DNA from: Streptomyces xanthophaeus
GTDB lineage: Bacteria > Actinomycetota > Actinomycetes > Streptomycetales > Streptomycetaceae
Assembly (NCBI RefSeq): GCF_000725805.1
Contig: NZ_JOFT01000041.1
Coordinates: 1-57,379, forward strand
Direction: 5' to 3'
Length of the DNA: 57,379 nucleotides
Positions 49-44,119 of the stretch are shown one piece after another (positions within the stretch are counted from its first letter, which is position 1; every line of letters starts with the position of its first letter). Below the pieces are notes generated by a model that saw nothing but the letters and a program-made list of their open reading frames with translations, searched no databases and was not told where the DNA came from. A program made the position numbers and the translations under genes.

Positions 49-60
49 AATCATTGTGGG

Positions 61-92: not shown

Positions 93-248
93 TGCGTTCC
101 GGGGCAGAATCCCGTGTGGCGGGGGGTCCACGACGACGCCGGTCACCGGGTTGCCCATGTCGTGTCGCTGAGGGTCGCGCGTCAGCAGTCTGGGCCTCGA
201 TCTGACGGTGCAGCCGCATCACGTTCAGCCCGTGGGGAGCCGTGGGGC

Positions 249-265
249 TTCCTCACTGTGAGGAA
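249..265. repeat. Perfect 17-base palindrome beside the IS remnant
   Basis: TTCCTCACTGTGAGGAA has two 8-bp arms around a central T. It sits about 20 bases outside the IS5-like end. The flanking stretch from 93 to 285 has no gene I can support. The palindrome may be an operator left from a lost gene or part of another element; no function can be assigned from sequence alone. Confidence 0.4.
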
Positions 266-285
266 AATCTGACACACCCCCCTAA

Positions 286-525: not shown

Positions 526-566
526 AGGACGACTCCGACGCCGTGATCACACCAGCCATGCCAAGA

Positions 567-908: not shown

Positions 909-1017
909 GTCCGCAGGCTGTCACAGCTGTCCGTCCGGAGTCGCACCGATATCCGGCCGAGGACCCGCTCCTCGGAGCCTCAGCCACGCGGCTCAACCAG
1001 CGGTTACGGGACAACCC

Positions 1018-2328: not shown

Positions 2329-3308
2329 CAGCGCGGTACGGGGACGTGGGAGAGGATCGCGGTGATGACGGCGTCGGCCTTGACCCCCTCCATCTCGGCC
2401 TCGGGGCGCAGCTGGACGCGGTGGCGGAGGGTCGGCAGGGCGAGGGCCTTGACGTCGTCGGGGGTGACGTAGTCACGGCCGGTGAGCCAGGCCCAGGCGC
2501 GGGAGGTGGCCAGCAGGGCGGTCGCACCGCGGGGGGAGACGCCGAGGGTGAGGGACGGGGACTCGCGGGTGGCGCGGCAGACGTCGACGACGTAGCCGGC
2601 GATCTCGGGGGAGACGGACACCTTGGCGACGGCCTCGCGGGCGGCTTCGAGCTCTGCGGGTCCTGCGACCGGGCGGACGCCCGCGGAGTGCAGGTCGCGG
2701 GGGTCGAAGCCGGCGGCGTGCCGGGTCAGGACGCCGATCTCGTCCTCGCGGGAGGGCAGCGGGACGGTGAGCTTGAGGAGGAAGCGGTCCAGCTGGGCTT
2801 CGGGGAGGGGGTAGGTGCCCTCGTACTCCAGCGGGTTCATGGTGGCGGCGACGAGGAAGGGCTCGGGCAGCGGGCGGGCGGTGCCGTCGACCGTGACCTG
2901 GCGCTCCTCCATCGCTTCGAGGAGCGAGGACTGGGTCTTGGGGGGTGTCCGGTTGATCTCGTCCGCGAGGAGGAGGTTGGTGAAGACCGGGCCGTTCTGG
3001 AAGGAGAACTCGGCGGTGCGGGCGTCGTAGACCAGGGAGCCGGTGACGTCGCTGGGCATCAGGTCCGGGGTGAACTGGACGCGCTTGGTGTCGAGTTCGA
3101 GGGAGGCCGCGAGGGCCCGTACGAGGAGGGTCTTCGCGACGCCGGGGACGCCTTCGAGGAGGACGTGGCCGCGGCACAGGAGTGCGACGACGAGACCGGT
3201 GACGGCGGAGTCCTGACCGACCACGGCCTTGCCGATCTCGGTGCGGAGCGCTTCGAGGGAAGCGCGGGCGCTGTCCGCGGCGGCGGATTCGGTGGCCGGG
3301 TACGTCAT
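2328..3308 (-). CDS. MoxR-family AAA+ ATPase
   Basis: The 326 residues hold Walker A GVPGVAKT at 53-60, Walker B LLLADEIN at 112-119, sensor 1 in LVAATMNPLEYEGTYPLPEA and an arginine-finger region, which is the usual MoxR layout and length. MoxR ATPases act as chaperones that load cofactors or help assemble protein complexes. Its start overlaps the stop of the DUF4350 gene by 4 bases (ATGA) and its stop overlaps the DUF58 start. This arrangement of MoxR, DUF58, DUF4350 and DUF4129 genes is common in actinobacteria. The role here is inferred only from family and context. Confidence 0.93.
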   Translation of the reverse strand: MTYPATESAAADSARASLEALRTEIGKAVVGQDSAVTGLVVALLCRGHVLLEGVPGVAKTLLVRALAASLELDTKRVQFTPDLMPSDVTGSLVYDARTAEFSFQNGPVFTNLLLADEINRTPPKTQSSLLEAMEERQVTVDGTARPLPEPFLVAATMNPLEYEGTYPLPEAQLDRFLLKLTVPLPSREDEIGVLTRHAAGFDPRDLHSAGVRPVAGPAELEAAREAVAKVSVSPEIAGYVVDVCRATRESPSLTLGVSPRGATALLATSRAWAWLTGRDYVTPDDVKALALPTLRHRVQLRPEAEMEGVKADAVITAILSHVPVPR

Positions 3309-4510
3309 GACGTGCGGACCTCTCTTTCGAGGGCGTCGAGGTGGTCGGCGAGCGCGACGAGGGCCGCGTCGTCGGAAGGGGTGGGGCCGAAGAGGAGGGC
3401 GGTCGTGTCACGGGACCCGTCGGGGAGCCGGGTGGAGACCGCGGGGACCAGTGCGGCGGGGTCGTGGGCCTGGGACTGGGGTACGCCGACCAGCGCGGCC
3501 AGGCGTTCGCGGGCGGCGGCGCGCAGCACGGTGGCGGCGCGGTCGCGGGCCCCGGCCTTGCGGTAGAGGCGGGCGCGGCCCTCGGTGGCCTCGGAGGCGC
3601 GGATGACGACGGGGAGGTTCTCGGTGACGAGGGGTCCCAGGCGGCGGGCGCGCCAGAGGGCGGCGAGGACGGCGGCGGCGAAGAGCTGGAGCAGGGCCCA
3701 GGACCAGCCGGCGGGGACGAGGTCGAAGAGGGACTTGTCCTCGTCCGCGGACGTGGCGTCCGGGTCGGTGTCGGAGAGGGTCGGCAGGTACCAGACGAGG
3801 TCCGGGTGGGCGCCGAGGAGCTGGAGGGCGAGGGAGGCGTTGCCCTCCTGGGCGAGGTTCTCGTTGAGGAGGATCGACTCGGAGCCCAGGACGACGGTGT
3901 CGCCGCCGGTGGTGCCGGTGGGCAGGACGAGGAGGGTGGGGTGGCCGTTGCCGGGGTAGCAGGCGGTGGCCCCGGGGCGGGTGGTGCTGTAGCGCAGGCC
4001 GGTGCCGGTGGTGGCGCGGCCGGCTGAAGTGGCGGCGGGGAGGGCGCAGCCGGGGGCGAGGTCGTCGGCGGACCAGCCGTCCTCGGTGCGCACGCCGGGG
4101 GCCAGGGCGGCCAGGGCGGTGCTGCCGGGGGCGAGGAGGACCGTACGGCCGCCGGAGAGGTCCATGGCGGAGCGGACGGTGCGGCGCTGGGCGTCCCCGA
4201 GCAGTTCGGGGTCGGTGACCAGGAGGGTGGTGCGGGGGCCGGAGGCGGCGGCGGCCTCGCGGGCGGTGGTGACGACCCGGGTGGTGACTCCGCGGTCCTC
4301 CAGGAGCTGGGCGAGGGCCCGGCTGCCGGTGGGGTCGGCGGAGCGGGGGTCGAGGTAGCCGTGCCGGGTGCCGCTGTCGAGGGCGGCGAGGGCGACGGCG
4401 GAGGCGAGGAGGAGGACGAGGAGGGCGACGATGCCGCGGGCGCGGCGCCAGAGCTGTGCGGCGCCGAGGGCGGTGGAGGTGGTGGCCGGGGGCGCGGTGG
4501 GGCCGGTCAT
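3305..4510 (-). CDS. DUF4350 domain membrane protein
   Basis: I chose the ATG at 4508-4510, giving 401 residues, because it overlaps the preceding stop by 4 bases (ATGA); the frame stays open further upstream only as a shadow of the DUF4129 gene. A transmembrane helix near residues 25-45 (GIVALLVLLLASAVALAAL) is followed by an extracytoplasmic DUF4350 domain (LAQLLEDRGVTTRVVTTAREA), then a second helix (WALLQLFAAAVLAALWRARR) and a cytoplasmic tail. The domain resembles the N-terminal fold of glutamine-amidotransferase-like or IFT52-like proteins. Function is unknown; it is probably a membrane component working with the MoxR-DUF58 pair. Confidence 0.88.
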   Translation of the reverse strand: MTGPTAPPATTSTALGAAQLWRRARGIVALLVLLLASAVALAALDSGTRHGYLDPRSADPTGSRALAQLLEDRGVTTRVVTTAREAAAASGPRTTLLVTDPELLGDAQRRTVRSAMDLSGGRTVLLAPGSTALAALAPGVRTEDGWSADDLAPGCALPAATSAGRATTGTGLRYSTTRPGATACYPGNGHPTLLVLPTGTTGGDTVVLGSESILLNENLAQEGNASLALQLLGAHPDLVWYLPTLSDTDPDATSADEDKSLFDLVPAGWSWALLQLFAAAVLAALWRARRLGPLVTENLPVVIRASEATEGRARLYRKAGARDRAATVLRAAARERLAALVGVPQSQAHDPAALVPAVSTRLPDGSRDTTALLFGPTPSDDAALVALADHLDALEREVRTS

Positions 4511-5187
4511 GCGGTGGGTCCCGTCAGGAGCGGCTTGGCGCGGTCCAGGGTGAGGTCGAGGGCGCGCAGCCGCTCGTACGTCGCGGCGTCGCCGGTGCGG
4601 CCGCCGTAGGTGACGTCGTCGAAGGCGCGGGCGGCGGCGCGCAGGTCCCCGGCGTGGCCGGGGAGGGAGACGGCGGCTTCGGCGGCCGCTTCGTCGGCGG
4701 TGCGGCCGGGGCGCGGGTCGAGGAGGGTGCGTTCCTCCAGGGAGCGGACGACGGCGCGCATGCGTTCCTGGACGGCTTCGGTCCAGCGGCCCGCGGCGGC
4801 GTGGGCGTCGGCGCTCCTGCGGTGGTCGGCGGCGCTGCGTATGCCGTCGTCGAAGAGGGTGGCGGCTGCGGTGGTGATCCGGCGGGGGGCGCCGAGCCGC
4901 CACCACAGGGCGGCGACGGCGAGGACGACGACGAGGAGGATCACGAGGAGGCCGACGGGGCCGCCGGGGGTGGCCCCGGAGGCCCGTTCGAAGAGTCCGT
5001 CGATCCAGTCCCAGAACCGGTCCAGTGCGCGGTCGAGCAGGCTGGGGTCGTTCTGGTGGTAGAGCCGTTTGGACAGCTCCTGCTCGGCCGCTTCCCGGGC
5101 CGGGTCGCGCGGTGTCGTCACCGGTGGTGTCTCTGCTGCGGGCAGCAGGGACGCGGCGCGGTCGATGAGGCCCCCCGTACTCATCAT
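4507..5187 (-). CDS. DUF4129 domain membrane protein
   Basis: This 226-residue protein has one clear transmembrane helix near residues 78-97 (VGLLVILLVVVLAVAALWW). It is followed by a cytoplasmic DUF4129 domain in which R-x(n)-E-rich helices (WTEAVQERMRAVVRSLEERTLL) and a conserved AFDDVTYGGR block are visible. DUF4129 is found at the C terminus of some transglutaminase-like membrane proteins that are encoded beside MoxR and DUF58 genes; here the transglutaminase part is absent. The start is ATG at 5185-5187, with a second ATG right after it. It overlaps the DUF4350 start by 4 bases and follows the membrane-protein gene by 7 bases. Confidence 0.88.
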   Translation of the reverse strand: MMSTGGLIDRAASLLPAAETPPVTTPRDPAREAAEQELSKRLYHQNDPSLLDRALDRFWDWIDGLFERASGATPGGPVGLLVILLVVVLAVAALWWRLGAPRRITTAAATLFDDGIRSAADHRRSADAHAAAGRWTEAVQERMRAVVRSLEERTLLDPRPGRTADEAAAEAAVSLPGHAGDLRAAARAFDDVTYGGRTGDAATYERLRALDLTLDRAKPLLTGPTA

Positions 5188-5194
5188 CGGTGCA

Positions 5195-6547
5195 TCAGCC
5201 TCCGGTGACCGGTCCGCCGGCGGTCTGTGCGGCGGAGGTGCCGGGGGTGTCGGTGCCGGCGGCCCGGACCAGTTCGAGGTCGAGTGCCTCGCGGCGGATG
5301 CGCTGGTCGACGTAGAGGAGGGTGGTGACGCCGGTCTGCATGGGCAGGGTGACGGCGGCGCCGACGACCGAGCCGACGGCGGCGATGATCAGGAAGGTCC
5401 AGCTCTGGGTGGCGGAGCCGTCGAGGAAGGAGCCCATGCCGCCCGGTGCCACGAACATGGCGACGATCGCGAAGGGCATCACCATGATCATGGCCGTGAG
5501 CTTGGCGATGAGGGCGGTGAGCAGGCTGATGCCGAAGATCCGCCACCAGGAGCCCTTGACGAGCTTGGCGGAGCGCTTGAGGGCGGCGCCGATGGAGCCG
5601 CGCTCCAGCATCAGTGCGGGCGGTGCCAGCAGGAAGGACACGTAGAACCAGGCCAGCAGGACGACCCCGACGGGGAAGCCGAGCGCGATCAGGCCCGGGC
5701 TGTCCGCCAGGATGCCGGGGAGCATCGGCAGCATTCCGGCGGCGAGGGCGCCGAGGAACAGGACGAGGGTCAGGCCCAGGAGGCGGCCCGCCAGGGGGCG
5801 CAGGGTGCGCAGGGTCGAGGAGACCGTGGTCCCGTGGCCGAGGACGGCGGCGCTGACGACGGGTGCGAGGAGCGCGGTGACCAGGAACAGGCCGAGGATC
5901 TCGGTGTAGTAGCTGAACGCGTAGAAGACCATGGCGTCGCCCATGGCGTCGAGCAGCTCGGACGGGCCGGCCGTCTCGTCGGTGGTGAACGCGTAGGTGT
6001 CCATGGTGGCGCGCTGGACGAGGAGCAGGGCCAGCTGGAACAGGGCGGCGACGACGAGGGTGACGGACAGGACCGTGCGCCAGTGCTTGCGCAGGATGCC
6101 GACCGCGCCGTCGAGGATCTCGCCGAGGCCCAGGGGGCGCAGCGGGATGATGCCGGGCTTGGCGGCGGGGGGCTTGCCCCACTGGCCGGTGCCGCCCGGG
6201 TAGCCGTAGGGCGTGCCGGGCTGGGGGTACTGGCCGGGGTAGGGGCCGTTCTGCGGGCCGCCGGGGTGCTGGCCGGGCTGCTGGCCGTACGAGCCCCAGC
6301 CTGCGCCCTGAGGTGCCTGTGGGGCGTTCTGGCCGGCGTCGCGGGGTGCGTCGGTGCCCGGGCTCGACCACTGGCCGGGCGGGGGCTGCTGGGCGGACCA
6401 CTTCTGGTCGCCTGCGGGCTGCGCGGGCTGCTCGGGACCGGCAGCCGGCTGGGTGGTGCCGGAGCCTGACTGGTCGGCTGGTGCCCCCGGCCGCTCGCCG
6501 TCGGACGGAGAGGATCCGGGCGTAGCCCAGCCCGGAGAGTCGTTCAT
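5195..6547 (-). CDS. Multi-pass membrane protein, glycerophosphodiester phosphodiesterase-membrane-domain type
   Basis: I start the gene at the ATG at 6545-6547 (MNDSPGW) because AAGGAG lies 6 bases upstream; in-frame codons further up lack such a site. The 450-residue product has a long N-terminal tail rich in P, G, Q and Y (about residues 1-135), then about six membrane helices. These include WRTVLSVTLVVAALFQLALL and GVVLLAWFYVSFLLAPPALM, the hallmark of the membrane domain seen next to some glycerophosphodiester phosphodiesterases. No catalytic phosphodiesterase domain is present. It is the first gene of the MoxR-DUF58 operon and diverges from mtrA across about 235 bases, so both may share regulation. 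Molecular role unknown. Confidence 0.85.
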   Translation of the reverse strand: MNDSPGWATPGSSPSDGERPGAPADQSGSGTTQPAAGPEQPAQPAGDQKWSAQQPPPGQWSSPGTDAPRDAGQNAPQAPQGAGWGSYGQQPGQHPGGPQNGPYPGQYPQPGTPYGYPGGTGQWGKPPAAKPGIIPLRPLGLGEILDGAVGILRKHWRTVLSVTLVVAALFQLALLLVQRATMDTYAFTTDETAGPSELLDAMGDAMVFYAFSYYTEILGLFLVTALLAPVVSAAVLGHGTTVSSTLRTLRPLAGRLLGLTLVLFLGALAAGMLPMLPGILADSPGLIALGFPVGVVLLAWFYVSFLLAPPALMLERGSIGAALKRSAKLVKGSWWRIFGISLLTALIAKLTAMIMVMPFAIVAMFVAPGGMGSFLDGSATQSWTFLIIAAVGSVVGAAVTLPMQTGVTTLLYVDQRIRREALDLELVRAAGTDTPGTSAAQTAGGPVTGG

Positions 6548-6763
6548 CGTCGCTCCTTCACGTGCACGTGCTGCGGCGGGGGCGCCGGTCGCTGCCATCG
6601 TGCCACGTGGGGTACACGAACGGACCAGCCGTCCCCCCCGGATCTTGGGCAGCCCGTACCTTCAATTGTCACCCGGATCCGGGGCAGACTGGTCGACCTG
6701 ATCTCCACGCAGGTCCGAGGGGCGATTTCCAGCCCTTTTGGCTGTGGGACAGCTCACCGCCAG

Positions 6764-6778
6764 GTAACGATTAGCTAA
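6764..6778 (+). promoter_or_regulatory. Candidate MtrA-type box in front of mtrA
   Basis: GTAAC at 6764-6768 is followed five bases later by GCTAA, close to the tandem GTAAC repeats reported for MtrA sites. It lies five bases before the mtrA start, and the overlapping ATTAGCTAAT at 6770-6779 is also a palindrome. Autoregulation is an inference, and the second half-site is imperfect. Confidence 0.35.
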
Positions 6779-6782
6779 TGGG

Positions 6783-7472
6783 ATGATGTCAAGCATGAAG
6801 GGACGAGTCCTTGTCGTCGACGACGACACCGCGCTGGCCGAGATGCTCGGCATTGTGCTGCGTGGAGAAGGTTTTGAGCCGTCGTTCGTAGCTGACGGTG
6901 ACAAGGCACTGGCTGCCTTCCGGGAGGCGAAGCCCGATCTGGTCCTGCTCGACCTCATGCTCCCCGGAAGGGACGGCATAGAGGTGTGCAGGCTGATCAG
7001 GGCCGAGTCGGGGGTGCCCATCGTCATGCTCACGGCCAAGAGCGACACGGTGGACGTCGTGGTGGGCCTGGAATCCGGTGCCGACGACTACATCGTCAAG
7101 CCGTTCAAGCCGAAGGAGCTGGTGGCCCGCATCCGGGCCCGTCTGCGCCGGTCGGAGGAGCCCGCCCCCGAGCAGCTGGCCATCGGTGACCTCGTCATCG
7201 ACGTGGCCGGGCACTCGGTCAAGCGGGACGGTGCCTCCATCGCCCTGACCCCGCTCGAGTTCGACCTGCTGGTCGCCCTCGCGCGCAAGCCCTGGCAGGT
7301 GTTCACCCGTGAGGTGCTGCTGGAGCAGGTCTGGGGCTACCGGCACGCGGCGGACACCCGGCTGGTGAACGTGCACGTGCAGCGCCTGCGCTCCAAGGTC
7401 GAGAAGGACCCGGAGCGCCCCGAGATCGTCGTGACGGTGCGTGGTGTCGGCTACAAGGCCGGACCCAGCTGA
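6783..7472 (+). CDS. mtrA: MtrA, OmpR-type response regulator
   Basis: MtrA is the DNA-binding half of the MtrAB(-LpqB) system, which in actinobacteria links development, cell wall and antibiotic control. The 229 residues have a receiver domain with acidic residues VVDDD (11-15), phospho-acceptor Asp57 in LVLLDLMLP and the switch lysine in VKPFKP. A C-terminal winged helix follows (LTPLEFDLLVALARKPWQVF and VNVHVQRLRSKVE). I keep the first of the starts at 6783 (MMSSMK) as in known homologues; ATG at 6795 is possible, since neither has a strong ribosome site. mtrB follows after one base. Confidence 0.97.
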   Translation: MMSSMKGRVLVVDDDTALAEMLGIVLRGEGFEPSFVADGDKALAAFREAKPDLVLLDLMLPGRDGIEVCRLIRAESGVPIVMLTAKSDTVDVVVGLESGADDYIVKPFKPKELVARIRARLRRSEEPAPEQLAIGDLVIDVAGHSVKRDGASIALTPLEFDLLVALARKPWQVFTREVLLEQVWGYRHAADTRLVNVHVQRLRSKVEKDPERPEIVVTVRGVGYKAGPS

Positions 7473-7473
7473 C

Positions 7474-9414
7474 GTGCAGCCCGGCCGGGACCGGGGCGCC
7501 TCCGGCCGGGGGATCCTGCGGGGCGGCCGGCTGCTCCACGAACGGGCGGCCGCCGGGCCGCTGCTGCGGCTGTTCGTGCGCCTCGTGCGACGGCCGCTGC
7601 TCCCGGCTGTCCGGCTGTGGCGGCGCAACATCCAGCTCCGGGTGGTCGCCGCCACCCTGCTGATATCGCTGGCCGTGGTCCTCGCGCTCGGTTTCGTCGT
7701 CATCGCCCAGGTCAGCACGGGCCTCCTCGACGCCAAGGAGGAGGCCGCGCAGAGCCAGGCCGCGGGCGGGTTCGCGGTCGCGCAGGAGAAGGCCAACACC
7801 CCGGCGACCGTGGACGGGCCCGACGCCACCGACAACAAGGTCGGCCGCGACGCGAGCACCTGGATGAACTCGCTCGTCAAGCAGCTGGCCAGTGGCGGCC
7901 AGACCGCCTTCGAGGTGGTCGCGCTCGGCGCGGGCACCGGGGTGGAGCAGGGCGGCCCCAACGCGCTCGGCGTCCGCGGCGCGCGCGCCTCCGGCAACGT
8001 CGACCCGACCGCGAGCGTCCCGCTGGGGCTGCGCCAGGCCGTCAACCACGCCACCGGGGCCTTCAAGACCTTCTCCGAGATCCGCTACACGGCCGGATCC
8101 GGGGAGAAGGCGCCCGAGCCCGCGCTGGTCGTGGGCAAGCGGCTCACCGACATCAACGGGGAACCGTACGACCTCTACTACCTCTTCCCGCTGACCCAGG
8201 AGGAGGAGTCCCTCAACCTGGTCAAGGTCACCATCTCCACCGCCGGCCTGTTCGTCGTCGTCCTGCTCGGCGGCATCGCCTGGCTCGTCGTGCGCCAGGT
8301 CGTCACCCCCGTGCGGATGGCCGCCGGGATCGCCGAGCGGCTCTCCGACGGGCGGCTCCAGGAGCGGATGAAGGTCACCGGCGAGGACGACATCGCGCGC
8401 CTCGGCGAGGCCTTCAACAAGATGGCGCAGAACCTCCAGAACAAGATCCAGCAGCTGGAGGACCTGTCGCGGATGCAGCGCCGCTTCGTCTCGGACGTCT
8501 CGCACGAGCTGCGGACCCCGCTGACGACGGTACGGATGGCCGCGGACGTCATCCACGACGCCCGGGTCGACTTCGACCCGGTCACCGCGCGCTCCGCCGA
8601 ACTGCTGGCGGGGCAGCTCGACCGCTTCGAGTCGCTGCTGTCCGACCTGCTGGAGATCAGCCGCTTCGACGCGGGGGCCGCCGCCCTGGAGGCGGAGCCG
8701 ATCGACCTGCGGGACGTCGTGCACCGCGTCATCGGCGGGGCCGAGCCGCTCGCCGAGCACAAGGGGACCCGGATCCGGGTCCTGGGCGACAGCCAGCCCG
8801 TCATCGCCGAGGCGGACTCGCGGCGCGTGGAGCGGGTGCTGCGCAACCTCGTCGTCAACGCCGTGGAGCACGGGGAGGGCCGCGACGTCGTGGTCCGCCT
8901 CGCGTCCGCGGGCGGTGCCGTCGCGGTCGCCGTGCGGGACTACGGGGTCGGCCTCAAGCCGGGCGAGGCCACCCGCGTCTTCAACCGCTTCTGGCGGGCC
9001 GACCCGGCCCGCGCCCGGACGACCGGCGGGACCGGCCTCGGCCTGTCCATCGCCGTCGAGGACGCCCGGCTGCACGGCGGCTGGCTTCAGGCCTGGGGCG
9101 AGCCCGGCGGCGGCTCGCAGTTCCGTCTGACGCTGCCGCGGACCGCCGACGAACCGCTGCGGGGCTCGCCGATCCCGCTGGAGCCCGAGGACTCCCGGGC
9201 CAACCGGGCCAGGGCCGCCTCGGAGGCCGCGGGCAGCGCGGCGGACCGCCGGCCGCCGGAGGGCGGTGACCGCTCGCCGATACCGCCGAGGTCCGCGGTG
9301 GCCGGGGCGATGCCGGTGCCCGCCGACCCGACGGCCCTGCCCGGCAGCGGTGCGCGGGTGGTGGCCAGGCCGGCCGAGCAGTCAGCACAGGAGGACCGAG
9401 CCGATGGAGGCTGA
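7474..9414 (+). CDS. mtrB: MtrB, membrane sensor histidine kinase
   Basis: MtrB is the sensor that phosphorylates MtrA. From the GTG at 7474, one base after the mtrA stop, it has 646 residues. A first membrane helix lies near 50-75 (VVAATLLISLAVVLALGFVV), followed by an extracytoplasmic sensing region of about 190 residues and a second helix (GLFVVVLLGGIAWLVV). Then come HAMP, a dimerisation helix with phospho-acceptor His344 in SDVSHELRTPL, and an ATP-binding domain with GTGLGLSI. A disordered Arg/Pro/Ala-rich tail closes the protein. In-frame GTG codons inside mtrA could also serve as starts. It overlaps lpqB by 11 bases, so the three genes form one operon. Confidence 0.95.
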   Translation: MQPGRDRGASGRGILRGGRLLHERAAAGPLLRLFVRLVRRPLLPAVRLWRRNIQLRVVAATLLISLAVVLALGFVVIAQVSTGLLDAKEEAAQSQAAGGFAVAQEKANTPATVDGPDATDNKVGRDASTWMNSLVKQLASGGQTAFEVVALGAGTGVEQGGPNALGVRGARASGNVDPTASVPLGLRQAVNHATGAFKTFSEIRYTAGSGEKAPEPALVVGKRLTDINGEPYDLYYLFPLTQEEESLNLVKVTISTAGLFVVVLLGGIAWLVVRQVVTPVRMAAGIAERLSDGRLQERMKVTGEDDIARLGEAFNKMAQNLQNKIQQLEDLSRMQRRFVSDVSHELRTPLTTVRMAADVIHDARVDFDPVTARSAELLAGQLDRFESLLSDLLEISRFDAGAAALEAEPIDLRDVVHRVIGGAEPLAEHKGTRIRVLGDSQPVIAEADSRRVERVLRNLVVNAVEHGEGRDVVVRLASAGGAVAVAVRDYGVGLKPGEATRVFNRFWRADPARARTTGGTGLGLSIAVEDARLHGGWLQAWGEPGGGSQFRLTLPRTADEPLRGSPIPLEPEDSRANRARAASEAAGSAADRRPPEGGDRSPIPPRSAVAGAMPVPADPTALPGSGARVVARPAEQSAQEDRADGG

Positions 9415-12165: not shown

Positions 12166-12510
12166 ATTTGGAACTGGAGGGGAAGGCCCATCGTTGCAGG
12201 TAGTAAGAGTGAACAGCCACCTGAACGGAGGTACGTTCCGGTAGCGGGTGCCGACAACCGCCATTGAGAGATATGTTCGGTTGTGAGGAACTGGCGAACC
12301 TTGGGCCCCACGCATCGGATCGCAAGTTTTGGAAATCTTCGTGTCAGGAGGCTGTCTCTCGACTCCGAAGTCGGTGGGGTGCAGATCTTGCCGATGGGGG
12401 AGGAGGAGGTGAAAGTCGCCAAGTCCGAGACTCCGGTGTTCATCGGAGTCTGGTGCGAAAGGGAGACGCTTCGCCCCATGAGGCGGAGCTATCCGGGAAC
12501 GGAGTTCTGC
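12166..12510 (+). promoter_or_regulatory. 345-base leader in front of hpf
   Basis: No gene is supported here, although a frame in phase with hpf stays open from 12283. Two copies of GGAACTGG occur (about 12169 and 12287), resembling the -35 GGAAC of ECF/stress sigma promoters; the first is followed about 17 bases later by CGTTG. Two hairpins are possible: ACAACCG at 12254-12260 with CGGTTGT at 12278-12284, and GACTCCG at 12429-12435 with CGGAGTC at 12444-12450. The region has lower GC than the neighbours. These features suit a stress-controlled gene but are only suggestive. Confidence 0.4.
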
Positions 12511-36374: not shown

Positions 36375-39300
36375 TCAGGGGGACGGCGGGAACAGCACGG
36401 GTATCGCCGAGACCAGGTGAGCGGCCCGGTCCAGAGCACTGGCCAGCAGCGCGAGGTCGGTCGGCCCGTTGCCGAGCTCCCGGACGGGCCGGCGGGCCGG
36501 AGGATCGCCCATCCGCTCCCACTCCACCGGGACCACGGTGGGCCGCAGGGTCGCGGTGCGCGGGATCCGGCCGGTGACCCGGCCCGCCTGGAACGGGACC
36601 GTCCGGCCGTCGGCGTACCGCAGCAGACCGCGGCCGGGGCCCGGCTGGTCGGGGGCGTCGAGCTCCACCCGCAGCGTGGTCATCCGGGCCAGCCCGGTGT
36701 CGGCCGTACGGTCCGGGCGGGCCGTGGTGGCCACCAGGTGCACGCCGAGCCGGGCGCCGTCGCGGGCCACCGCCTCCAGCGCCCGGACCACCGAACCGGC
36801 GGCGGGGCGGCCCGTACTGCCCAGGCCCGGCGCGACCAGTGCGTCCAGGTCGTCGACCAGGACCACCAGCCGGGGCAGCGGACCGGGCCCGGCCGGATCG
36901 GTGCGCGGAGCCGCGGAACGCAGCCGGAGCGTGCCCGACCGCGGGGGGTCCAGATCGCCGCGCTGCTCCCCGGGGCCGGGCTGGCGGGGCGAGACCATGC
37001 GCCCGGAGAGGTCGCCCTGGGCCTCCCCGGCCCGGAAGGCCGGGGGGCGGCCGTGCCACTCGGCGAACGGCACCCCGTCCAGGAGTTCGGCGCGGCGCTT
37101 GAGCTCCGCGCCGAGGGCCTGCGCGAACTCCCGCATGCGCAGCGGGTCGGTGGCGACGAGGTGGGCGGACACGTGGGGCAGTTCGGTGCAGGGCGCCAGC
37201 CCGTCGCCGCGTTCGCCGCCGGCCCCGTCGAGGAGGACCAGCCCGAGCCGGTCGGGCCGGGCGCCCGCGGACAGGGAGGCGGCCACCGACCGCAGCAGCT
37301 CGGTCCGCCCGCTTCCGGCGGGACCCTCGATGAGCAGGTGCGGGCCGTCCTGGACCAGCTCCGCGCCCACGGCCCCGCGCCGCCCGCTGCCCAGCACGAT
37401 CTCGGCCAGGCCGCCCGTGCCCTGCCCCTGGTCGGTGGCGGCGGCCCAGCGGGCCATCAGGGACGCGGGGGTCGCGCGGGCCAGCCCCAGTTCGTCCAGC
37501 AGCCGTGCGGTGGGCGGCAGGGCCGCGGAGGTGGGCCGGTGCGGCTCCTGGGAGCCCCCGTCGGCGCGCAGCGGGGCCAGGGCCCGGGCGAACCGCTCGG
37601 CCCAGGCCACGGACACCGCGTCGGCGGTGGCACCGGCTCCGGAGGGGACGGGCCGGCCCCCGCTGACCGCGAAGGTCCGTACGGTCGTGGCCACGTCGCC
37701 GCTGAGCAGGGCCACGGCGCCGCAGTCCCGGAAGGCGGGGTTGTTCGCGCAGGCGCTCTCGTAGGTGTCGGCGACCGGGGAGGCGGGCGTGGCGGCCGGG
37801 GCCTCGGCGAGCGCGAGGACGTGGATGCCGGCGGCCGGACCGTGCGAGGCGAGCCGCCCGGTGACGTCCCGCAGGGCCCCGGTGCCGGGGTCGCCGTCGA
37901 CGATCACGAGGGTGTACGGGCCCTCGTGGACCCGGGCGGCCTGCCGGACGCCCTCCGGGTCGGCGGCGGCCCAGTGGGTGCCGAGCGGGCCTTCGTCCAG
38001 CCGCCGGGTCAGCTCGCCGGTGCGGGCGGCGGCCTGGTCGCGGTCGTAGGCGAGGAGCAGGCGGCAGTCCTGGCCGTGCGCGGGCCGCAGGTGCGGCAGC
38101 CAGCCGAGCCAGCCCCAGTCGCGGCGCCGTTCGGCGAGTCCGCGGGAGCGGTCGGCGGCGATCAGGACGATCTCCAGCTGGGCCGGGCCGTGCAGGGCCG
38201 CCAGCTGGGCGACCACACAGCGGGCCACCCCGGCCAGCCTGGCCCGGGGACCGGCGATGCCGAGCGAGCCGACCGTGCGCAGGGCCACCCGGCTCCCGGC
38301 CCCGAGGCCCACGTCCAGCACCCCGGAGTGCCCCGGTGCCCTGGACCAGAGGCGTTCGGTGGGTCCGAGGGCCGCCAGCAGCAGCGCGGCGGGGTCGTCC
38401 GGGTCGGGCGCGGCAGCGGCGGCGGCCACGGCCTCCGGCTCGGGCAGCGGCTCCGCGGCCTCGTCGCCGCGCACCCACTTGCGGGCCCAGGCGCCGAGCC
38501 CCTTGCGGCGGCCGGCGCCGGCCCCGCCCGAAGCATCGGTTCCGGTACGCGGTCCTGCCGTCGGCTCGGGGGCGGCGCCCGGGCCCGGCTGCGCCCCTCG
38601 CGGCCCGGCGGGGGGCGCGGCCGGCTCCGGGGCGGGGTGCGCTGCGGCCGAGGGGCCCTTTTGGCGGGGGACGCCGCCCTGAGGTCCGGCGGGGGGCGCC
38701 GGGTGCTGCCCGGAGGCGGCGGCCGGAGCCGGGCCGCTCCCGTGCCCGGCGCCTTGGCCGGCGCCGGGGGCGAGCGGTGCGCGGCCGGGGAGGGCGAGGT
38801 GCCCCTCCAGGTCCGGGGTCACCGCCAGCGGGACCGCCGATCCGGCGGGGGTCAGGCGCAGGGTGGACTCGCCGACCCGCAGCAGGGCCCCCGGCGGCAG
38901 GGCCACCGGCTGGGGGCCGACGGGGGCGCCGTCCAGAGTGGTGCCGTTCGTCGAGTCCAGGTCGGCCACGGCCACCCGGCCGTCCGGCAGCACCGTGACC
39001 GCGCAGTGCAGCCGGGACACGTCGGGGTCGTCCAGCGGGACGTCGGCGTCGGCGGACCGGCCCACCCGGATCTGGCCGCTGTGCAGCAGGTGCACGCCGC
39101 CCGCGTCGGGACCGGCGACCACCTGCAGCTGGGGCGCGCCGAGGCTCTCCTCGGGCAGGACGTCCGGAACCGGACCGTGCAGCGCCAGGACCGCGCCGTC
39201 CACCAGCGGGGGCTCGCCCAGGATCCGTCTCTGGAGGTCGAGGCGTTCGGCGCCGGCGTACAGCACGACCGTGCCGCCGGTGTCGGGGCCGCCCACGGTG

Positions 39301-39431
39301 GCCGCGAGCCCGGAGGCCACCGCGGCCAGCGCGGTACCGGCGGGCGCCGTGACGAGTACGTCACAGCTCGCGGGTGCGGTCGCGGTCTGGTGGCCGCTGC
39401 GCGACCCGAGGACGGTCAGCCGGATCTGCAT
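36375..39431 (-). CDS. FHA domain - FtsK/SpoIIIE-type ATPase
   Basis: The 1,018-residue protein joins two modules. Residues ~95-190 form a forkhead-associated domain with the phosphothreonine-binding residues GR (124-125), SRLH (139-142) and STNG (160-163). After a Pro/Ala-rich linker (~210-330) comes a P-loop NTPase domain of the FtsK/SpoIIIE and EccC kind, with Walker A GPAGSGRT at 703-710 and Walker B LVVLVDDLD near 855. A ubiquitin-like segment occupies residues 1-90 (LTVLGS and ALAAVASGLA). The FHA module should bind phosphothreonine proteins, and the Ser/Thr kinases PkaA and PkaB are encoded just across the promoter. No type VII secretion genes are nearby, so substrate and role are open. 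Confidence 0.9.
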   Translation of the reverse strand: MQIRLTVLGSRSGHQTATAPASCDVLVTAPAGTALAAVASGLAATVGGPDTGGTVVLYAGAERLDLQRRILGEPPLVDGAVLALHGPVPDVLPEESLGAPQLQVVAGPDAGGVHLLHSGQIRVGRSADADVPLDDPDVSRLHCAVTVLPDGRVAVADLDSTNGTTLDGAPVGPQPVALPPGALLRVGESTLRLTPAGSAVPLAVTPDLEGHLALPGRAPLAPGAGQGAGHGSGPAPAAASGQHPAPPAGPQGGVPRQKGPSAAAHPAPEPAAPPAGPRGAQPGPGAAPEPTAGPRTGTDASGGAGAGRRKGLGAWARKWVRGDEAAEPLPEPEAVAAAAAAPDPDDPAALLLAALGPTERLWSRAPGHSGVLDVGLGAGSRVALRTVGSLGIAGPRARLAGVARCVVAQLAALHGPAQLEIVLIAADRSRGLAERRRDWGWLGWLPHLRPAHGQDCRLLLAYDRDQAAARTGELTRRLDEGPLGTHWAAADPEGVRQAARVHEGPYTLVIVDGDPGTGALRDVTGRLASHGPAAGIHVLALAEAPAATPASPVADTYESACANNPAFRDCGAVALLSGDVATTVRTFAVSGGRPVPSGAGATADAVSVAWAERFARALAPLRADGGSQEPHRPTSAALPPTARLLDELGLARATPASLMARWAAATDQGQGTGGLAEIVLGSGRRGAVGAELVQDGPHLLIEGPAGSGRTELLRSVAASLSAGARPDRLGLVLLDGAGGERGDGLAPCTELPHVSAHLVATDPLRMREFAQALGAELKRRAELLDGVPFAEWHGRPPAFRAGEAQGDLSGRMVSPRQPGPGEQRGDLDPPRSGTLRLRSAAPRTDPAGPGPLPRLVVLVDDLDALVAPGLGSTGRPAAGSVVRALEAVARDGARLGVHLVATTARPDRTADTGLARMTTLRVELDAPDQPGPGRGLLRYADGRTVPFQAGRVTGRIPRTATLRPTVVPVEWERMGDPPARRPVRELGNGPTDLALLASALDRAAHLVSAIPVLFPPSP

Positions 39432-39878
39432 CGCCGTCAGCGGTCCCTTCTGCGCGGTGCGCGGTGCGTGCGCCCGGCAGGGAGGATCCGGGACGTGCCC
39501 GCCCGATCACCCCCCGCCCGGCACGGACGCGTCGTCCGGTCAGGTCTGCCCGGAAGGCGGGGCTCCCGTCCCGTGCCGTCCGTACGGGTGCATCCTCGCA
39601 CCTGTCGCCCACAACACGCCCGGCACCCGGCAACAAGTGATCTTGATCGGTCGCGGCGCCGTACAGATCCGGACAGCAACCCCGGCAATGGCGGGGAAAG
39701 CCGGGGAAAATCGCCTCCGGCATACCCGACGAACATCACCCTTCGTACATATGTACGGCAACCAACCTTCGGTGCGCCGCGTCTTCCACCGGGACACCCC
39801 CTAGAGTGGGCCGGAAAAAAGCAAGCAGGACCACCCAGGATCAAGCAGCGGGACGACTACAGCAGGGGAGCGCGAGAC
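39432..39878. other. Divergent 447-base region between the FHA-ATPase and pkaA
   Basis: No gene is supported. It holds a perfect palindrome CGTACATATGTACG (39744-39757), a TAGAGT at 39802-39807 that could be the pkaA -10, and AT-richer DNA at about 39600-39760. Both genes probably have their promoters here. Confidence 0.5.
39744..39757. promoter_or_regulatory. Perfect 14-bp palindrome upstream of pkaA
   Basis: CGTACATATGTACG reads the same on both strands. It lies about 120 bases before the pkaA start and 45 bases before the possible -10. Perfect symmetry with an AT core suggests a dimeric regulator site; the regulator is unknown. Confidence 0.5.
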
Positions 39879-41645
39879 GTGCGGCCAGTCGGCAGCAAAT
39901 ACCTGCTCGAGGAGCCGCTCGGGCGCGGCGCCACGGGCACCGTCTGGCGTGCGCGCCAGCGCGAGACCGCCGGCGCCGAGGCGGCCGTCGCCGGGCAGCC
40001 CGGCGAGACCGTGGCCATCAAGGTCCTCAAGGAGGAGCTGGCCCAGGACGCGGACATCGTCATGCGCTTCCTGCGCGAGCGCTCGGTGCTGCTGCGCCTG
40101 ACGCACCCCAACATCGTCCGCACCCGCGACCTCGTCGTCGAGGGCGATCTGCTGGCGCTGGTCATGGACCTCATCGAGGGTCCGGACCTGCACAAGTACC
40201 TCCGCCAGAACGGCCCCTTCACCCCCGTCGCAGCGAGCCTGCTGACCGCGCAGATCGCGGACGCGCTCGCCGCCAGCCACGCCGACGGCGTGGTGCACCG
40301 CGACCTCAAGCCCGCCAACGTCCTGCTCGACGAGCGCGGTGGCCAGATGAAGCCGATGCTCACCGACTTCGGCATCGCCCGCCTCGCGGACTCCCCGGGC
40401 CTGACCCGCACCCACGAGTTCGTCGGCACCCCGGCCTACGTCGCCCCCGAGTCCGCCGAGGGCCGCCCGCAGACCTCCGCCGTCGACATCTACGGCGCCG
40501 GCATCCTGCTCTACGAACTCCTCACCGGCCGCCCGCCGTTCGCCGGCGGCACCGCGCTCGAAGTGCTCCACCGCCACCTCAGCGAGGAGCCGCAGCGCCC
40601 CTCGACCGTGCCCGAGCCGCTGTGGACCGTCATCGAACGCTGCCTGCGCAAGGAGCCGAACGAGCGCCCCAGCGCCGAGAGCCTGGCCCGCGGGCTGCGC
40701 GTGGTCGCCTCCGGCATCGGCGTGCACTCCTCGGCCGCCGAGGTGGAGGCCGCGCTCGGCGTGGGCGCCCTGCTCGCCCCCGACCCCTCGCCGGCCCCGG
40801 TGCCGCAGACCCCGGGCGCCGCCGACCCCACCCAGGTGCTGCCCGGCGGGGCCCCGTCGCCGATGGGGGCCTACGACCCGAACGCCATGACCTCCGTCAT
40901 GCCGCCGGTCGGCGCGGCCGACGCCACCTCGGTGCTCCCGACGGGGGGAGCGGGAGCCCCCGGGGCCGACCCGACCTCCGTCATGCCCCCGGTGCAGCAG
41001 CCGGACCAGCCGCACCCCTGGCAGTCCCAGATGCGGGCGGTCCGCGACCGCAACGAGCAGACGCAGGTGCAGTACCTCGACCCGAACGAGGACCCGCTGC
41101 GCCGCCGTCCGCAGCGGCAGGCGCCCCCGCCGCCGCAGCAGCAGCCGCGCCGGCCCCAGCAGCAGCCCCAGCAGCAGCAGCCGTACCGCCAGGGCCCGCC
41201 GCCGCAGCACTACCAGCAGCAGCCGCAGCCGCAGCAGCCCCCGTATCCGCAGCAGTACGCGCCTGCGCCGCCGCAGCACTACCAGCAGCAGCACCAGCCG
41301 CAGCCGTACCAGCAGCAGCAGTCCCAGCAGCAGCCCCAGTACCGGCAGCCCCAGCAGCAGCCTCCGCAGGGCCCGCCGCCGCAGCAGCAGGCCCCGCGGC
41401 CCCCGCGCGAGCCCCGCAGGCGCAGCGCCAACCCGGTGCGCATCCCCGGCCTCGGCTGCCTCAAGGGCTGCCTGGTCATGATCCTGCTGTTCTTCGTGGC
41501 GGGCTGGCTGGTCTGGGAACTGACCCCGCTTCAGGAATGGGTCGGCACCGGCAAGGGATGGTGGGACCAGCTGTGGAGCTGGGGCTCCGGCGTCGCCGAC
41601 TGGGTCGGTTCCGTCGGCGACTCGGCGGGCGGTACGCAGCCCTGA
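39879..41645 (+). CDS. pkaA: PkaA, eukaryotic-type Ser/Thr protein kinase
   Basis: The GTG at 39879, preceded by GGGGAG, gives 588 residues. The kinase domain spans ~8-280: glycine loop LGRGATGTVW, Lys48 in TVAIKVL, catalytic HRDLKPANVLL (His140-Arg141-Asp142), DFGIA and the APE-like YVAPESAEG. A ~13-residue insertion (AGAEAAVAGQPGE) sits before Lys48. Residues ~400-520 are very rich in Q and P with QQQP repeats, and one membrane helix follows near 528-548 (GCLVMILLFFVAGWLVW) plus a short tail. So the kinase is inside and only ~40 residues are outside. S. coelicolor PkaA is the expected homologue. It is followed by pkaB after 159 bases. Confidence 0.92.
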   Translation: MRPVGSKYLLEEPLGRGATGTVWRARQRETAGAEAAVAGQPGETVAIKVLKEELAQDADIVMRFLRERSVLLRLTHPNIVRTRDLVVEGDLLALVMDLIEGPDLHKYLRQNGPFTPVAASLLTAQIADALAASHADGVVHRDLKPANVLLDERGGQMKPMLTDFGIARLADSPGLTRTHEFVGTPAYVAPESAEGRPQTSAVDIYGAGILLYELLTGRPPFAGGTALEVLHRHLSEEPQRPSTVPEPLWTVIERCLRKEPNERPSAESLARGLRVVASGIGVHSSAAEVEAALGVGALLAPDPSPAPVPQTPGAADPTQVLPGGAPSPMGAYDPNAMTSVMPPVGAADATSVLPTGGAGAPGADPTSVMPPVQQPDQPHPWQSQMRAVRDRNEQTQVQYLDPNEDPLRRRPQRQAPPPPQQQPRRPQQQPQQQQPYRQGPPPQHYQQQPQPQQPPYPQQYAPAPPQHYQQQHQPQPYQQQQSQQQPQYRQPQQQPPQGPPPQQQAPRPPREPRRRSANPVRIPGLGCLKGCLVMILLFFVAGWLVWELTPLQEWVGTGKGWWDQLWSWGSGVADWVGSVGDSAGGTQP

Positions 41646-41804
41646 ACCGGCTCCCGTAGCGCCGAGTTCGTGGATTTGTCGACTTCTGGGACATGATTTC
41701 GCCCGCAGAAGTGAAGGTCGCCGCGAATCGGGCCCCCTACTGGCCGCCAACCCCCACCCGGCCGCGTAGCTTTGGTGCGTACGCCAGCCGCTGAGGGAGC
41801 AGTC

Positions 41805-43055
41805 GTGGCACGGAAGATCGGCAGCCGGTACACCGCGCACCAGATCCTGGGGCGCGGCAGCGCGGGCACGGTGTGGCTGGGTGAGGGGCCCGACGGGCCC
41901 GTCGCCGTCAAACTGCTGCGCGAGGACCTCGCGTCCGACCAGGAGCTGGTCGGACGGTTCGTCCAGGAGCGCAGTGCGCTGCTCGGGCTGGACCATCCGC
42001 ACGTGGTCTCCGTCCGCGACCTCGTCGTCGACGGCAACGACCTCGCCCTCGTCATGGACCTCGTCCGCGGTACGGACCTGCGCACGCGCCTGGACCGCGA
42101 GCGCCGCCTCGCCCCCGAGGCGGCCGTGGCGATCGTCGCGGACGTCGCGGACGCGCTCGCCGCGGCCCACGCGGCCGGCGTCGTGCACCGGGACGTCAAG
42201 CCGGAGAACGTCCTGCTGGACATGCAGGGCCCGCTCGGCCCCGGCGGCGCGCACCCGGCCCTGCTCACCGACTTCGGCGTGGCCAAGCTCATCGACACCC
42301 CGCGCCGCGCCTCGGCGGGCCGGACCTCGGCCCCCACCACGCGGATCATCGGCACGCCGGACTACCTGGCGCCGGAGATCGTCGAGGGTCTCCCGCCGCG
42401 GGCCGCGGTGGACATATATGCCCTGGCCACCGTCCTGTACGAGCTGCTGGCCGGGTTCACCCCCTTCGGCGGCGGCCACCCGGGCGCGGTGCTGCGCCGC
42501 CACGTGACGGAGACGGTCGTCCCGCTGCCCGGGATCCCCGACGAGCTGTGGCAGCTGGTCGTGCAGTGCCTGGCCAAGGCCCCGGCCTCGCGGCTGCGGG
42601 CCTCGGAGCTGTCGGCCCGCCTGCGGGACCTGCTGCCGCTGCTGGCCGGGATGCCGCCGCTGGACGTGGACGAGCCGGACGACGCCGAGCCGGAGCCGGA
42701 GCCCTCGGAGGAACCGGCCGCCGATCCGGTGCGCCGCCGGGGCGTGGTCCCGCTGGTGCCGGGCTCCGCGACCGACTCCAACCGGGACACGCACACCTCG
42801 ATGCGGGTGCCGGGGCCGGACGAACTGGCGGGCGGCGCCCTGGGCACCGCCCGCGTACCCCGCCCGGCGGGCGGCCACCGCCCGGGCTCGGCCCGGCACC
42901 GGGCGGAAGCGGCCCGCAAGCGCAGGCTGGTGCTGTCCGTCTCGGCCGTGCTGCTGGCCGCCGCGGTCGGAGTGGGTACGTGGCTCGCCGTTTCCGGTGG
43001 CGACGAACAGGCGCCGCAGCAGGACAGCAAGCAGTCGGGCCCGCGCACCCCTTAG
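41805..43055 (+). CDS. pkaB: PkaB, eukaryotic-type Ser/Thr protein kinase
   Basis: The GTG at 41805, with GAGGGAG upstream, gives 416 residues. Kinase motifs are complete: LGRGSAGTVW, Lys in VAVKLL, HRDVKPENVLLDM (His128, Asp130), DFGVAKL and LAPEIVEG. A Pro/Glu/Arg-rich linker (~290-375) leads to one membrane helix near 377-397 (LVLSVSAVLLAAAVGVGTWL) and a short external tail rich in Q and P, so there is no external sensor domain. It is paired with pkaA, as in S. coelicolor, and the two may act in the same pathway as the FHA-ATPase. Confidence 0.93.
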   Translation: MARKIGSRYTAHQILGRGSAGTVWLGEGPDGPVAVKLLREDLASDQELVGRFVQERSALLGLDHPHVVSVRDLVVDGNDLALVMDLVRGTDLRTRLDRERRLAPEAAVAIVADVADALAAAHAAGVVHRDVKPENVLLDMQGPLGPGGAHPALLTDFGVAKLIDTPRRASAGRTSAPTTRIIGTPDYLAPEIVEGLPPRAAVDIYALATVLYELLAGFTPFGGGHPGAVLRRHVTETVVPLPGIPDELWQLVVQCLAKAPASRLRASELSARLRDLLPLLAGMPPLDVDEPDDAEPEPEPSEEPAADPVRRRGVVPLVPGSATDSNRDTHTSMRVPGPDELAGGALGTARVPRPAGGHRPGSARHRAEAARKRRLVLSVSAVLLAAAVGVGTWLAVSGGDEQAPQQDSKQSGPRTP

Positions 43056-43070: not shown

Positions 43071-43109
43071 GCCCGCCGGGCCCCTGGGGGCTGTGGCCGC
43101 CCGGCGGGC
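43071..43109. terminator. Bidirectional terminator between pkaB and the oxygenase gene
   Basis: Perfect 11-bp arms GCCCGCCGGGC and GCCCGGCGGGC are separated by 17 bases. The right arm touches the stop codon of the minus-strand oxygenase gene. Confidence 0.8.
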
Positions 43110-44119
43110 TACGCCGGGACCAGCTCGGGGTGCCAGCGGCGCGCGACGGCCGGGTGGGCGCGGACCCAGCCCTTGAGCTCGTTGCGGCCGTACTCCGCGT
43201 GCAGCGGGTTCGTCGCGTCGTGGGCGACGCCCGGGGCGGAGTGCAGGTAGTCGCCCGGGACCGTCTCCACCACCGCGTCCAGGCGCGGGTTGTAGAAGAA
43301 GGGGACCGAGTACCGCTCCACCGCCCCCGGAGGGCTGACCACGCGGTGGTCGGTGGCCGTCAGGTACCCCTCGGTGGCGATCTCCAGCAGCTCGCCCAGG
43401 TTGACCACGAAGGCACCCGGCATCGGCGGCACCTCCACGTACCCGCCGTCCCGGACCACCTGGAGCCCGCCCACCGAGTCCTGGAGCAGGAGCGTCAGGA
43501 AGCCGTAGTCCTTGTGCGCACCGACGCCCTGGCCGGCGCCGGAGGTGGCGGAGGGGTCGGACCCGGGGTAGCGGACCAGCTTGGTGTGCAGGTGCGGCCG
43601 GTCCGCGAAGGCCCCGTCGAAGAAGTCGGCCGGGGCGCCGATGGAGACCAGGAGCTCCTGGAGCAGCCGGTGGGCCACCGCCGCCAGCCGCGCCTGCCAC
43701 TCCAGGACCACCGTCCGCAGCTCCGGGAGGGCCGCCGGCCACTGGTTGGGCCCCTCCAGCCAGAGGTACGCCGGGTCGTCCGGCCCCAGCACCGGCGCGG
43801 GTCGCTCGGCGCCGACGTCCAGCTGGTCCCGCCAGTCGCTGGCCCCGCCGGTCAGCTCGTGGCCGATCCGGGTGTAGCCGCGGAAGTGCGGGGAGTTCAG
43901 ATTGCTCACGGCGAGCCGGTCGGCCTCCGGGAGGGCGAAGAAAGCCCTGGTCAGGTCCAGGATGCGGGCGGTCTCGGCGGCGGTGACGCCATGGCCGGTG
44001 AGGTGCAGGAAACCGGTGTCCCGGGCTGCTGCGTGCAGCTTCTTCAGGAAATCGGCCCGCTGGGCCGGGTCGTCCGCCTGGGAGAGGTCCAGGACGGGGA
44101 GGGAGTGCGCGGACGGCAT
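43109..44119 (-). CDS. Fe(II)/2-oxoglutarate-dependent oxygenase, isopenicillin-N-synthase family
   Basis: The 336 residues have the DIOX_N head (FLHLTGHGV) and a double-stranded beta-helix with Fe ligands His202, Asp204 (GAHKDYGFL) and His258 (TATDHRVVSP), and the co-substrate motif R-Y-S at 269-271. Such enzymes hydroxylate or oxidise small molecules, using 2-oxoglutarate in most members. Lone members like this one are common in Streptomyces and not tied to beta-lactam synthesis; no biosynthetic cluster is near. The ATG at 44117-44119 is the start. It diverges from prfB over 313 bases, which contain a palindrome. Confidence 0.9.
   Translation of the reverse strand: MPSAHSLPVLDLSQADDPAQRADFLKKLHAAARDTGFLHLTGHGVTAAETARILDLTRAFFALPEADRLAVSNLNSPHFRGYTRIGHELTGGASDWRDQLDVGAERPAPVLGPDDPAYLWLEGPNQWPAALPELRTVVLEWQARLAAVAHRLLQELLVSIGAPADFFDGAFADRPHLHTKLVRYPGSDPSATSGAGQGVGAHKDYGFLTLLLQDSVGGLQVVRDGGYVEVPPMPGAFVVNLGELLEIATEGYLTATDHRVVSPPGAVERYSVPFFYNPRLDAVVETVPGDYLHSAPGVAHDATNPLHAEYGRNELKGWVRAHPAVARRWHPELVPA

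Follow-up and report, generated by a model that had tools for sequence, protein, structure and literature searches.

The window analysed here is a stretch of 57,379 nucleotides from Streptomyces xanthophaeus (NCBI RefSeq assembly GCF_000725805.1, contig NZ_JOFT01000041.1). Its minus strand carries, at 36375..39431, a gene with an ATG start at 39431 for a protein of 1,018 amino acids, called the FHA protein below. This protein has an FHA domain with a complete phosphothreonine (pThr) site and an ATPase fold in which the catalytic residues are replaced, and its gene stands divergently beside pkaA, the gene of a membrane-anchored Ser/Thr kinase. The explanation favoured here, with somewhat better than even confidence, is a phospho-switched scaffold. 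The tail of PkaA would be phosphorylated, the FHA domain would dock on it, and the pseudo-ATPase would act as an adaptor.

The first line of evidence is the loss of catalytic residues. In an alignment to the solved EccC structure 4nh0, Arg709 lies opposite the Walker A lysine and Asp861 opposite the Walker B glutamate. The Walker A motif (37302..37325; this and all other features of the gene are on the minus strand) reads GPAGSGRT. The Walker B motif VVLVDD (36849..36866) lies in a region that reads LVVLVDD and lacks the ending in DE. Such replacements abolish hydrolysis in P-loop ATPases. Arg709 and Asp861 do not fit an active RecA-type motor of the FtsK/SpoIIIE group, and an active motor was rejected because of this loss; the ATPase module is probably dead. 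An earlier note on this DNA had described the module as an FtsK/EccC-like P-loop domain. The fold is borne out, but the P-loop has lost its lysine and the Walker B motif its glutamate.

The same loss is found in the relatives. Among 111 orthologs, none combines the Walker A lysine with the Walker B glutamate, and the glutamate itself occurs in 0/111. Position 709 is Lys in 25, Arg in 76, Val or Ile in nine, and deleted in one (locus L138). The Streptomyces set, which comprises the best 80 of 542 related loci (79 with Streptomyces in the title and one with “Actinobacteria bacterium”), has together with the window protein (n=81) Arg in 72 and Lys in nine at position 709, and Asp at 861 in all 81. 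A sample of the family (n=20) has Lys in 16 and Arg in four, with Asp at 861 throughout. In two other families of the order (n=10), position 709 is Val in seven, Ile in two and deleted in one, and position 861 is Asn in seven, Gly in two and Asp in one.

The changes at position 709 were followed on a tree of 66 sequences (33 of the 81 in the Streptomyces set, 20 from the family, 10 from the order and three outgroups). The outgroups, canonical EssC-like proteins, have the lysine in 3/3 and the glutamate in the two that are readable, the third being cut at a contig end. The Arg label changes four times, each change being forced by starred branches. On the simplest reading these are four gains of Arg from Lys, although they may include losses. 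Despite the catalytic loss the module is under constraint, since its mean column conservation stays high (0.79), as is expected of a scaffold. Some nucleotide binding may remain by analogy with EssC, because its D2 module, which has Asn in place of the Walker B acid, is reported still to bind ATP (PMC4925161).

The predicted architecture of the FHA protein is an FHA domain, an EccC “DUF” domain and one EccC/FtsK ATPase module. A domain search, which the earlier note had proposed, gave Pfam matches to FHA (4.1e-16) and FtsK_SpoIIIE (1.7e-14). The structure model used was built from an alignment of 45 rows and has a pLDDT of 75.2; an earlier model from 15 close rows reached 38.7 and was unusable. 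Residues 1-90 (39162..39431) form a small N-terminal domain, assigned from predicted secondary structure only. Its strand-strand-helix-strand order would resemble a ubiquitin fold, with block means of pLDDT between 73 and 90 and one block at 53. The FHA domain (residues 98-198; 38838..39140) is followed by a linker of mostly disordered Pro/Ala/Gly sequence (residues 199-342; 38406..38837), the DUF fold (residues 335-625; 37557..38429) and the degraded EccC/EssC/FtsK-type module (residues 627-1017; 36381..37553). There is one module only, as PF01580 matches a single stretch and the matched fold runs to the end of the protein.

Mean column conservation in the 81 sequences is 0.74 in the N-terminal domain, 0.84 in the FHA domain, 0.47 in the linker and 0.77 in the DUF domain. 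The most conserved part of the protein is a C-terminal block outside the Walker motifs (residues 960-1017, 36381-36554; 0.88 over residues 960-1015), a possible partner surface.

EssC and EccC have a two-helix membrane hairpin before the DUF domain. In the FHA protein no such hairpin was found by 19-residue hydropathy between the FHA and DUF domains (best value 0.87). The corresponding maxima are at most 1.45 in the 81 sequences of the Streptomyces set and at most 0.91 in the 30 family and order sequences, compared with 1.78-2.64 in the three canonical outgroups. The values for the relatives and outgroups were taken from alignments, after the FHA-to-DUF boundary had been misplaced for three loci (L111-L113). 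Since it is without a membrane hairpin, further ATPase modules and catalytic residues, the FHA protein is read as an adaptor and not as a pump.

The second line of evidence is the FHA domain itself. The motifs GR (124-125), SRLH (139-142) and STNG (160-163) are present in the 1,018-residue protein as the earlier note had described them. In an alignment of 45 sequences (the window protein and 44 of 48 references, a further 12 loci being excluded on account of an unclear start or their length) the residues G124, R125, S139, R140, H142, S160, T161, N162 and G163 are all invariant. They include four proteins whose P-loop lysine is replaced by Val or deleted, and in these the FHA site is still complete. 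Among the 81 sequences, counting those with letters at the positions, G124 and R125 are kept in 78/78, S139, R140 and H142 in 76/76, S160, T161 and N162 in 76/78, and G163 in 77/78. The pThr-binding residues expected of the FHA partner in a kinase-FHA pair are thus intact.

The third line is the kinase tail. The gene pkaA (39879..41645, plus strand) is open in frame from its GTG start, and its 588-residue product has a kinase domain (residues 10-269; Pfam Pkinase, 1.1e-54), a Pro/Gln-rich tail and one C-terminal transmembrane segment (about residues 527-545). The tail contains five sites of the form T-[SQ]-V-[LMQ], at Thr318, Thr338, Thr350, Thr366 and Thr395 (40830..41063, plus strand). These threonines are candidate FHA docking sites. 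FHA domains prefer a phosphothreonine with a chosen residue at position +3. The Pro/Gln-rich stretch between the kinase domain and the membrane is variable in the relatives except around the repeated threonines.

Enrichment was measured against shuffled tails. In 104 PkaA tails the pattern T-[STQ]-[VIM]-[LIMVQ] was counted 274 times, where 4.4 are expected, and in 101 PkaB tails four times, where 3.0 are expected. One PkaA tail of 105 was dropped as shorter than 40 residues, and some are over-long (1,524 residues in L114, for instance), the domain end or transmembrane segment having been misjudged. The broader pattern T-x-x-[ILVM] was counted in tails of 60 to 600 residues with a recognisable end of the kinase domain. 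It is found 269 times in 73 PkaA tails of the Streptomyces set (63.1 expected), 48 times in 16 tails of other genera (15.3) and 35 times in 10 tails of other families (9.1). The serine equivalents fall below expectation in the same three groups (42 vs 69.8, 3 vs 12.4 and 8 vs 15.6), as does the threonine pattern in 57 Streptomyces PkaB tails (55 vs 68.3). Candidate pThr sites with a hydrophobic residue at +3 are therefore a feature of the PkaA tail and not of the PkaB tail.

The second kinase gene, pkaB, lies downstream of pkaA on the plus strand (41772..43055). Its start is uncertain, with candidates at TTG 41772, GTG 41775 and GTG 41805; its product matches Pkinase at 1.1e-44 (Pfam). Both kinases end in a tail anchor, with a hydropathy of 2.36 and 43 following residues in PkaA and of 2.07 and 22 in PkaB. 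A transmembrane segment was detected in 91 of the 104 PkaA tails and 62 of the 101 PkaB tails. The tail-anchored membrane location of SCO2973, the PkaB ortholog, has been reported from fractionation (PMC3087755). The earlier note had suggested a circuit through either kinase. The invariant FHA site, the pairing with pkaA and the PkaA tail sites support such a circuit for PkaA, but PkaB lacks the sites.

The fourth line of evidence is the pairing of the FHA gene with pkaA, which is old. The upstream flank is present in 75 of the 80 loci of the Streptomyces set, the other five ending at a contig end. A divergent pkaA adjoins the FHA gene in all 75 (73 by tblastn; L046 and L063 by phmmer), and pkaB follows pkaA in 73, the remaining two being cut by contig ends. 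Family-wide, a match at E <= 1e-25 is present in 79/81 genomes and 17/17 genera. In 20 stretches chosen to cover these genera (Streptomyces and 16 others), pkaA is divergent in 20/20 and pkaB stands beside it in 18; pkaB is elsewhere in L118 and not in the stretch in L124. In L118 (4350-17292, genus g14) pkaA is still divergent beside the FHA gene, with the pkaB-prfB block on that gene's far side. In L112 (9702-14936, genus g8) the gene is split between two reading frames, one for the FHA part and one for the ATPase part, through a frameshift or an assembly error.

The arrangement extends to two other families of the order (15 genomes, two not fetched). All ten stretches that reach the FHA gene have it divergent from pkaA, and nine have the complete run from the ATPase gene through pkaA and pkaB to prfB, L141 being cut. 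On four short contigs of these families only pkaB-prfB is present. Weak matches (34-42%) about 7 kb from prfB were found in seven of 15 non-family genomes, and the stretches from these and other genomes contain the whole module. The earlier note had named a lack of co-occurrence beyond close relatives as a result that would refute it; the pair in fact extends throughout the family and into two others. The idea of a pairing confined to the genus was rejected on the same grounds, and since the arrangement recurs so widely it is not a chance one.

Outside the order, only prfB neighbourhoods were compared: 40 stretches from 33 of 34 other families (f21 left out), several cut by contig ends. Three contain an FHA-FtsK gene (L152 in family f10, L167 in f26, L178 in f37), and two other f26 stretches have none at prfB. 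These three genes have canonical catalytic residues where readable, and only in L152 is a kinase gene adjacent. There (2-9069) the gene is FHA-EssC-like, is truncated at the contig end and stands divergently to the kinase gene, which is followed by T2SSE/T2SSF genes and prfB.

The region common to the FHA gene and pkaA is exactly 447 bp long (39432..39878), from the ATG at 39431 to the GTG at 39879, in agreement with the earlier note. It contains a sigma-E type promoter of pkaA (39757..39785, plus strand), found as a match to the pattern GGCAACC-N16-CGTCTT (PMC6767563). Its strict form occurs in 60 of 72 loci, and a relaxed form in 70/72 compared with 2.3/72 in shuffled regions; eight of 80 loci, whose pkaA start pattern was unmatched, are left out of this count. 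A sigma-E promoter of S. coelicolor pkaA was reported from ChIP-seq peaks and sequence, and the same work predicts conservation in nine or more of 19 genomes for 21 sigma-E targets, pkaA among them (PMC6767563).

The same paper describes sco2975 as a gene for a hypothetical protein with a weaker sigma-E site. By gene order and a similar intergenic element the FHA gene is a putative ortholog of SCO2975; the exact S. coelicolor promoter strings have no match in 191 loci. The element in question, TGATCTTGATCGGTC (39638..39652, no strand assigned), resembles the sco2975 site, and for this reason the FHA gene may also respond to sigma-E. Its core TGATCTTGA is at least 90% conserved in 51 aligned intergenic regions (51 of 73 stretches passed a length filter), and the element is possibly an operator or a part of the FHA gene's promoter.

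The scaffold model arranges these observations as follows. Under envelope stress sigma-E would raise the level of the membrane-anchored PkaA, which would autophosphorylate the repeated T-x-V-L/M threonines in the disordered stretch between its kinase domain and the membrane. The FHA domain of the divergent gene's product would bind at least one of these phosphothreonines, and docking would carry the body with the EccC DUF and ATPase folds to the membrane. That body, which would descend from an EssC/EccC-like secretion motor, would there act as an adaptor that gathers or holds a partner, most likely in the envelope or division machinery. In the literature, PkaA is reported to interact with PkaI, a kinase whose substrates include the cell-wall proteins MreC and PBP2 (PMC4416010).

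Several observations weigh against this model. Its components are seen in sequence and the steps between them are inferred, and its link to ftsEX is one of gene order only. ATP may still be bound, since the Walker A lysine is retained in 25 of the 111 orthologs. At FHA residues 160-163 one or two of 78 sequences differ, the two parts of the protein in L112 are in separate frames, and 15 of 104 PkaA tails lack T-[STQ]-[VIM]-[LIMVQ]. The shuffled expectations ignore relatedness, the tail sequences not being independent, and the PkaB control for T-x-x-[ILVM] has only two usable tails from other genera and none from other families. A further pattern, T-x-[VILM]-[VILM], is absent from seven of nine f3 tails. 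Its count in f2 and f3 together is 4 against 1.0 expected, which does not exceed the best of 100 shuffles. PknB has the same pattern in conserved form (121 occurrences in 120 tails, 3.4 expected), so the PkaA sites may serve other FHA proteins, and the motif may mark FHA docking in Streptomyces kinases generally. The genome also has 12 FHA matches. In the window genome the PknB gene (L186, 14496-16541) and two frames with FHA domains are about 5 kb apart, and the TSM[ML]PP-type juxtamembrane site of PknB is conserved in close homologs.

One alternative builds on the last of these points. Instead of PkaA, the FHA protein could read PknB, a substrate of PkaB or an envelope enzyme, its place beside pkaA reflecting co-regulation or inherited gene order. 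The number of FHA matches, the TSM[ML]PP-type sites that PknB has in its tail and the age of the gene order with prfB itself would all agree with this. However, pkaA stays divergent beside the FHA gene where pkaB is elsewhere (L118) or off the stretch (L124), and the threonine-specific sites are found in PkaA and not in PkaB. This alternative is considered unlikely. The main text of an S. rimosus phosphoproteome contains no mention of FHA, FtsK or PkaA (PMC9600765).

Another model makes the FHA protein an accessory pseudo-subunit of a type VII secretion system (T7SS), with its EccC-like body joining or regulating EccC. The fold is EccC-like, and the genome has a separate set on contig C21 (L187, 7798-19293) with EccD (minus strand), EccC (both domain models above cut-off) and EccE. 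Loci that combine a kinase and an FHA-ATPase are also described, in the T7SSd of Actinomycetota (PMC11217815). On the other hand, the FHA gene and the T7SS genes are on different contigs, and the protein has no hairpin and only one module. No T7SS gene was found among the identified and annotated neighbours, small open reading frames not having been scanned for WXG100, TsdH or TsdI. The FHA protein has the DUF domain and ATPase fold of EccC and EssC, and scores 116.1 bits against the curated EccCa model TIGR03924, whose cut-off is 509.15. By sequence tests it is not a member of the EccC/EssC group, because the curated score is low and the hairpin, further modules and catalytic pair are missing. 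The pseudo-subunit model is rated improbable.

A third alternative takes up the phospho-controlled transport or DNA pumping that the earlier note had raised: the kinases would control a functional motor that moves protein or DNA with ATP. The FtsK/EccC fold, the conservation of the module in the Streptomyces set and the lysine kept in some orthologs are in its favour, but it is very improbable and is rejected here. No ortholog has the Walker B glutamate (or the catalytic pair), several lineages have another residue in place of the P-loop lysine and L138 has none, and there is one ATPase module and no membrane hairpin.

The FHA protein and PkaA would be a variant of the kinase-FHA pair. In mycobacteria, the juxtamembrane domain of PknB is reported to recruit FhaA (PMC6180346). 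Both cases have a membrane kinase with a threonine-bearing juxtamembrane segment and an FHA partner, although binding is only predicted here, and the FhaA FHA structure 3oun lies near the domain of the FHA protein (35% identity). Differences are that a domain scan found no PASTA match in PkaA, and that FhaA is not known to carry an EccC/FtsK module.

In T7SSd, one locus encodes the kinase TsdD and the FHA-ATPase TsdC, which likewise joins an FHA domain with a conserved pThr site to an EccC-type body. TsdC is described as a membrane protein for which four NTPase domains are predicted, and its gene stands beside a WXG100 gene (PMC11217815), whereas the FHA protein has its one degraded module, no hairpin and no annotated T7SS neighbour. 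EssC/YukB of T7SSb share the N-terminal FHA region and the DUF and ATPase folds. Unlike the FHA protein, EssC has two transmembrane segments and three modules, and its FHA domains are described as lacking the pThr site (PMC4925161).

A further parallel is the threonine-phosphorylation pathway of type VI secretion systems, whose proteins are named PpkA-Fha1. There a kinase and an FHA reader control assembly, as in the A. tumefaciens case cited in PMC11217815; at the pkaA locus no secretion machine was identified. The earlier note's statement that no system is described for this gene set holds in part. A literature search found no description of a kinase-FHA pair in pseudo-ATPase form, but PknB-FhaA and T7SSd are described.

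The remaining features of the locus are as follows. After pkaB come a 2OG-Fe(II) oxygenase gene on the opposite strand (43109-44119, minus strand), prfB, an ftsE-like ABC-ATPase gene, an FtsX gene, an S41 peptidase gene, smpB and ssrA; sugar-ABC transporter genes are also among the identified neighbours. The oxygenase gene is a lineage-specific insertion, since it is limited to the closest loci of the Streptomyces set (such as L001-L012) and absent from the more distant ones. A tRNA-Arg (gcg) called by ARAGORN antisense within pkaA (41066-41140, minus strand) is absent from the Rfam matches at gathering threshold and is probably a false call. A raiA-hairpin RNA (RF03059, 65.7 bits) lies at 12417-12464 (plus strand). 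PADLOC matches to defence kinases and mad8 were attributed to the general folds of kinases and of FtsK. The closest database protein, from S. xanthophaeus, matches residues 340-1018 of the FHA protein at 100%. The best PF01580 match of the genome is on contig C34 (1.9e-64) and is presumably FtsK itself.

The Streptomyces kinases PkaA and PkaB have long had their names, and a literature search found no reader for either. A broader evolutionary account can be offered tentatively, at somewhat less than even confidence. Early in the order a type VII-like motor may have become a soluble pseudo-ATPase, whose FHA pocket is its best-kept ligand site and which would represent a class of pseudo-enzymes (pseudo-EccC). 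It would have been fixed as the reader dedicated to a tail-anchored kinase under sigma-E control, turning autophosphorylation into membrane scaffolding of envelope growth. The scaffold model makes a concrete prediction, with five named PkaA threonines, one FHA domain and no ATP hydrolysis. More generally, a motor of the secretion type is seen to lose catalytic residues in several lineages and to keep a conserved phospho-reading domain, which bears on the role of FHA domains on EssC-type ATPases.

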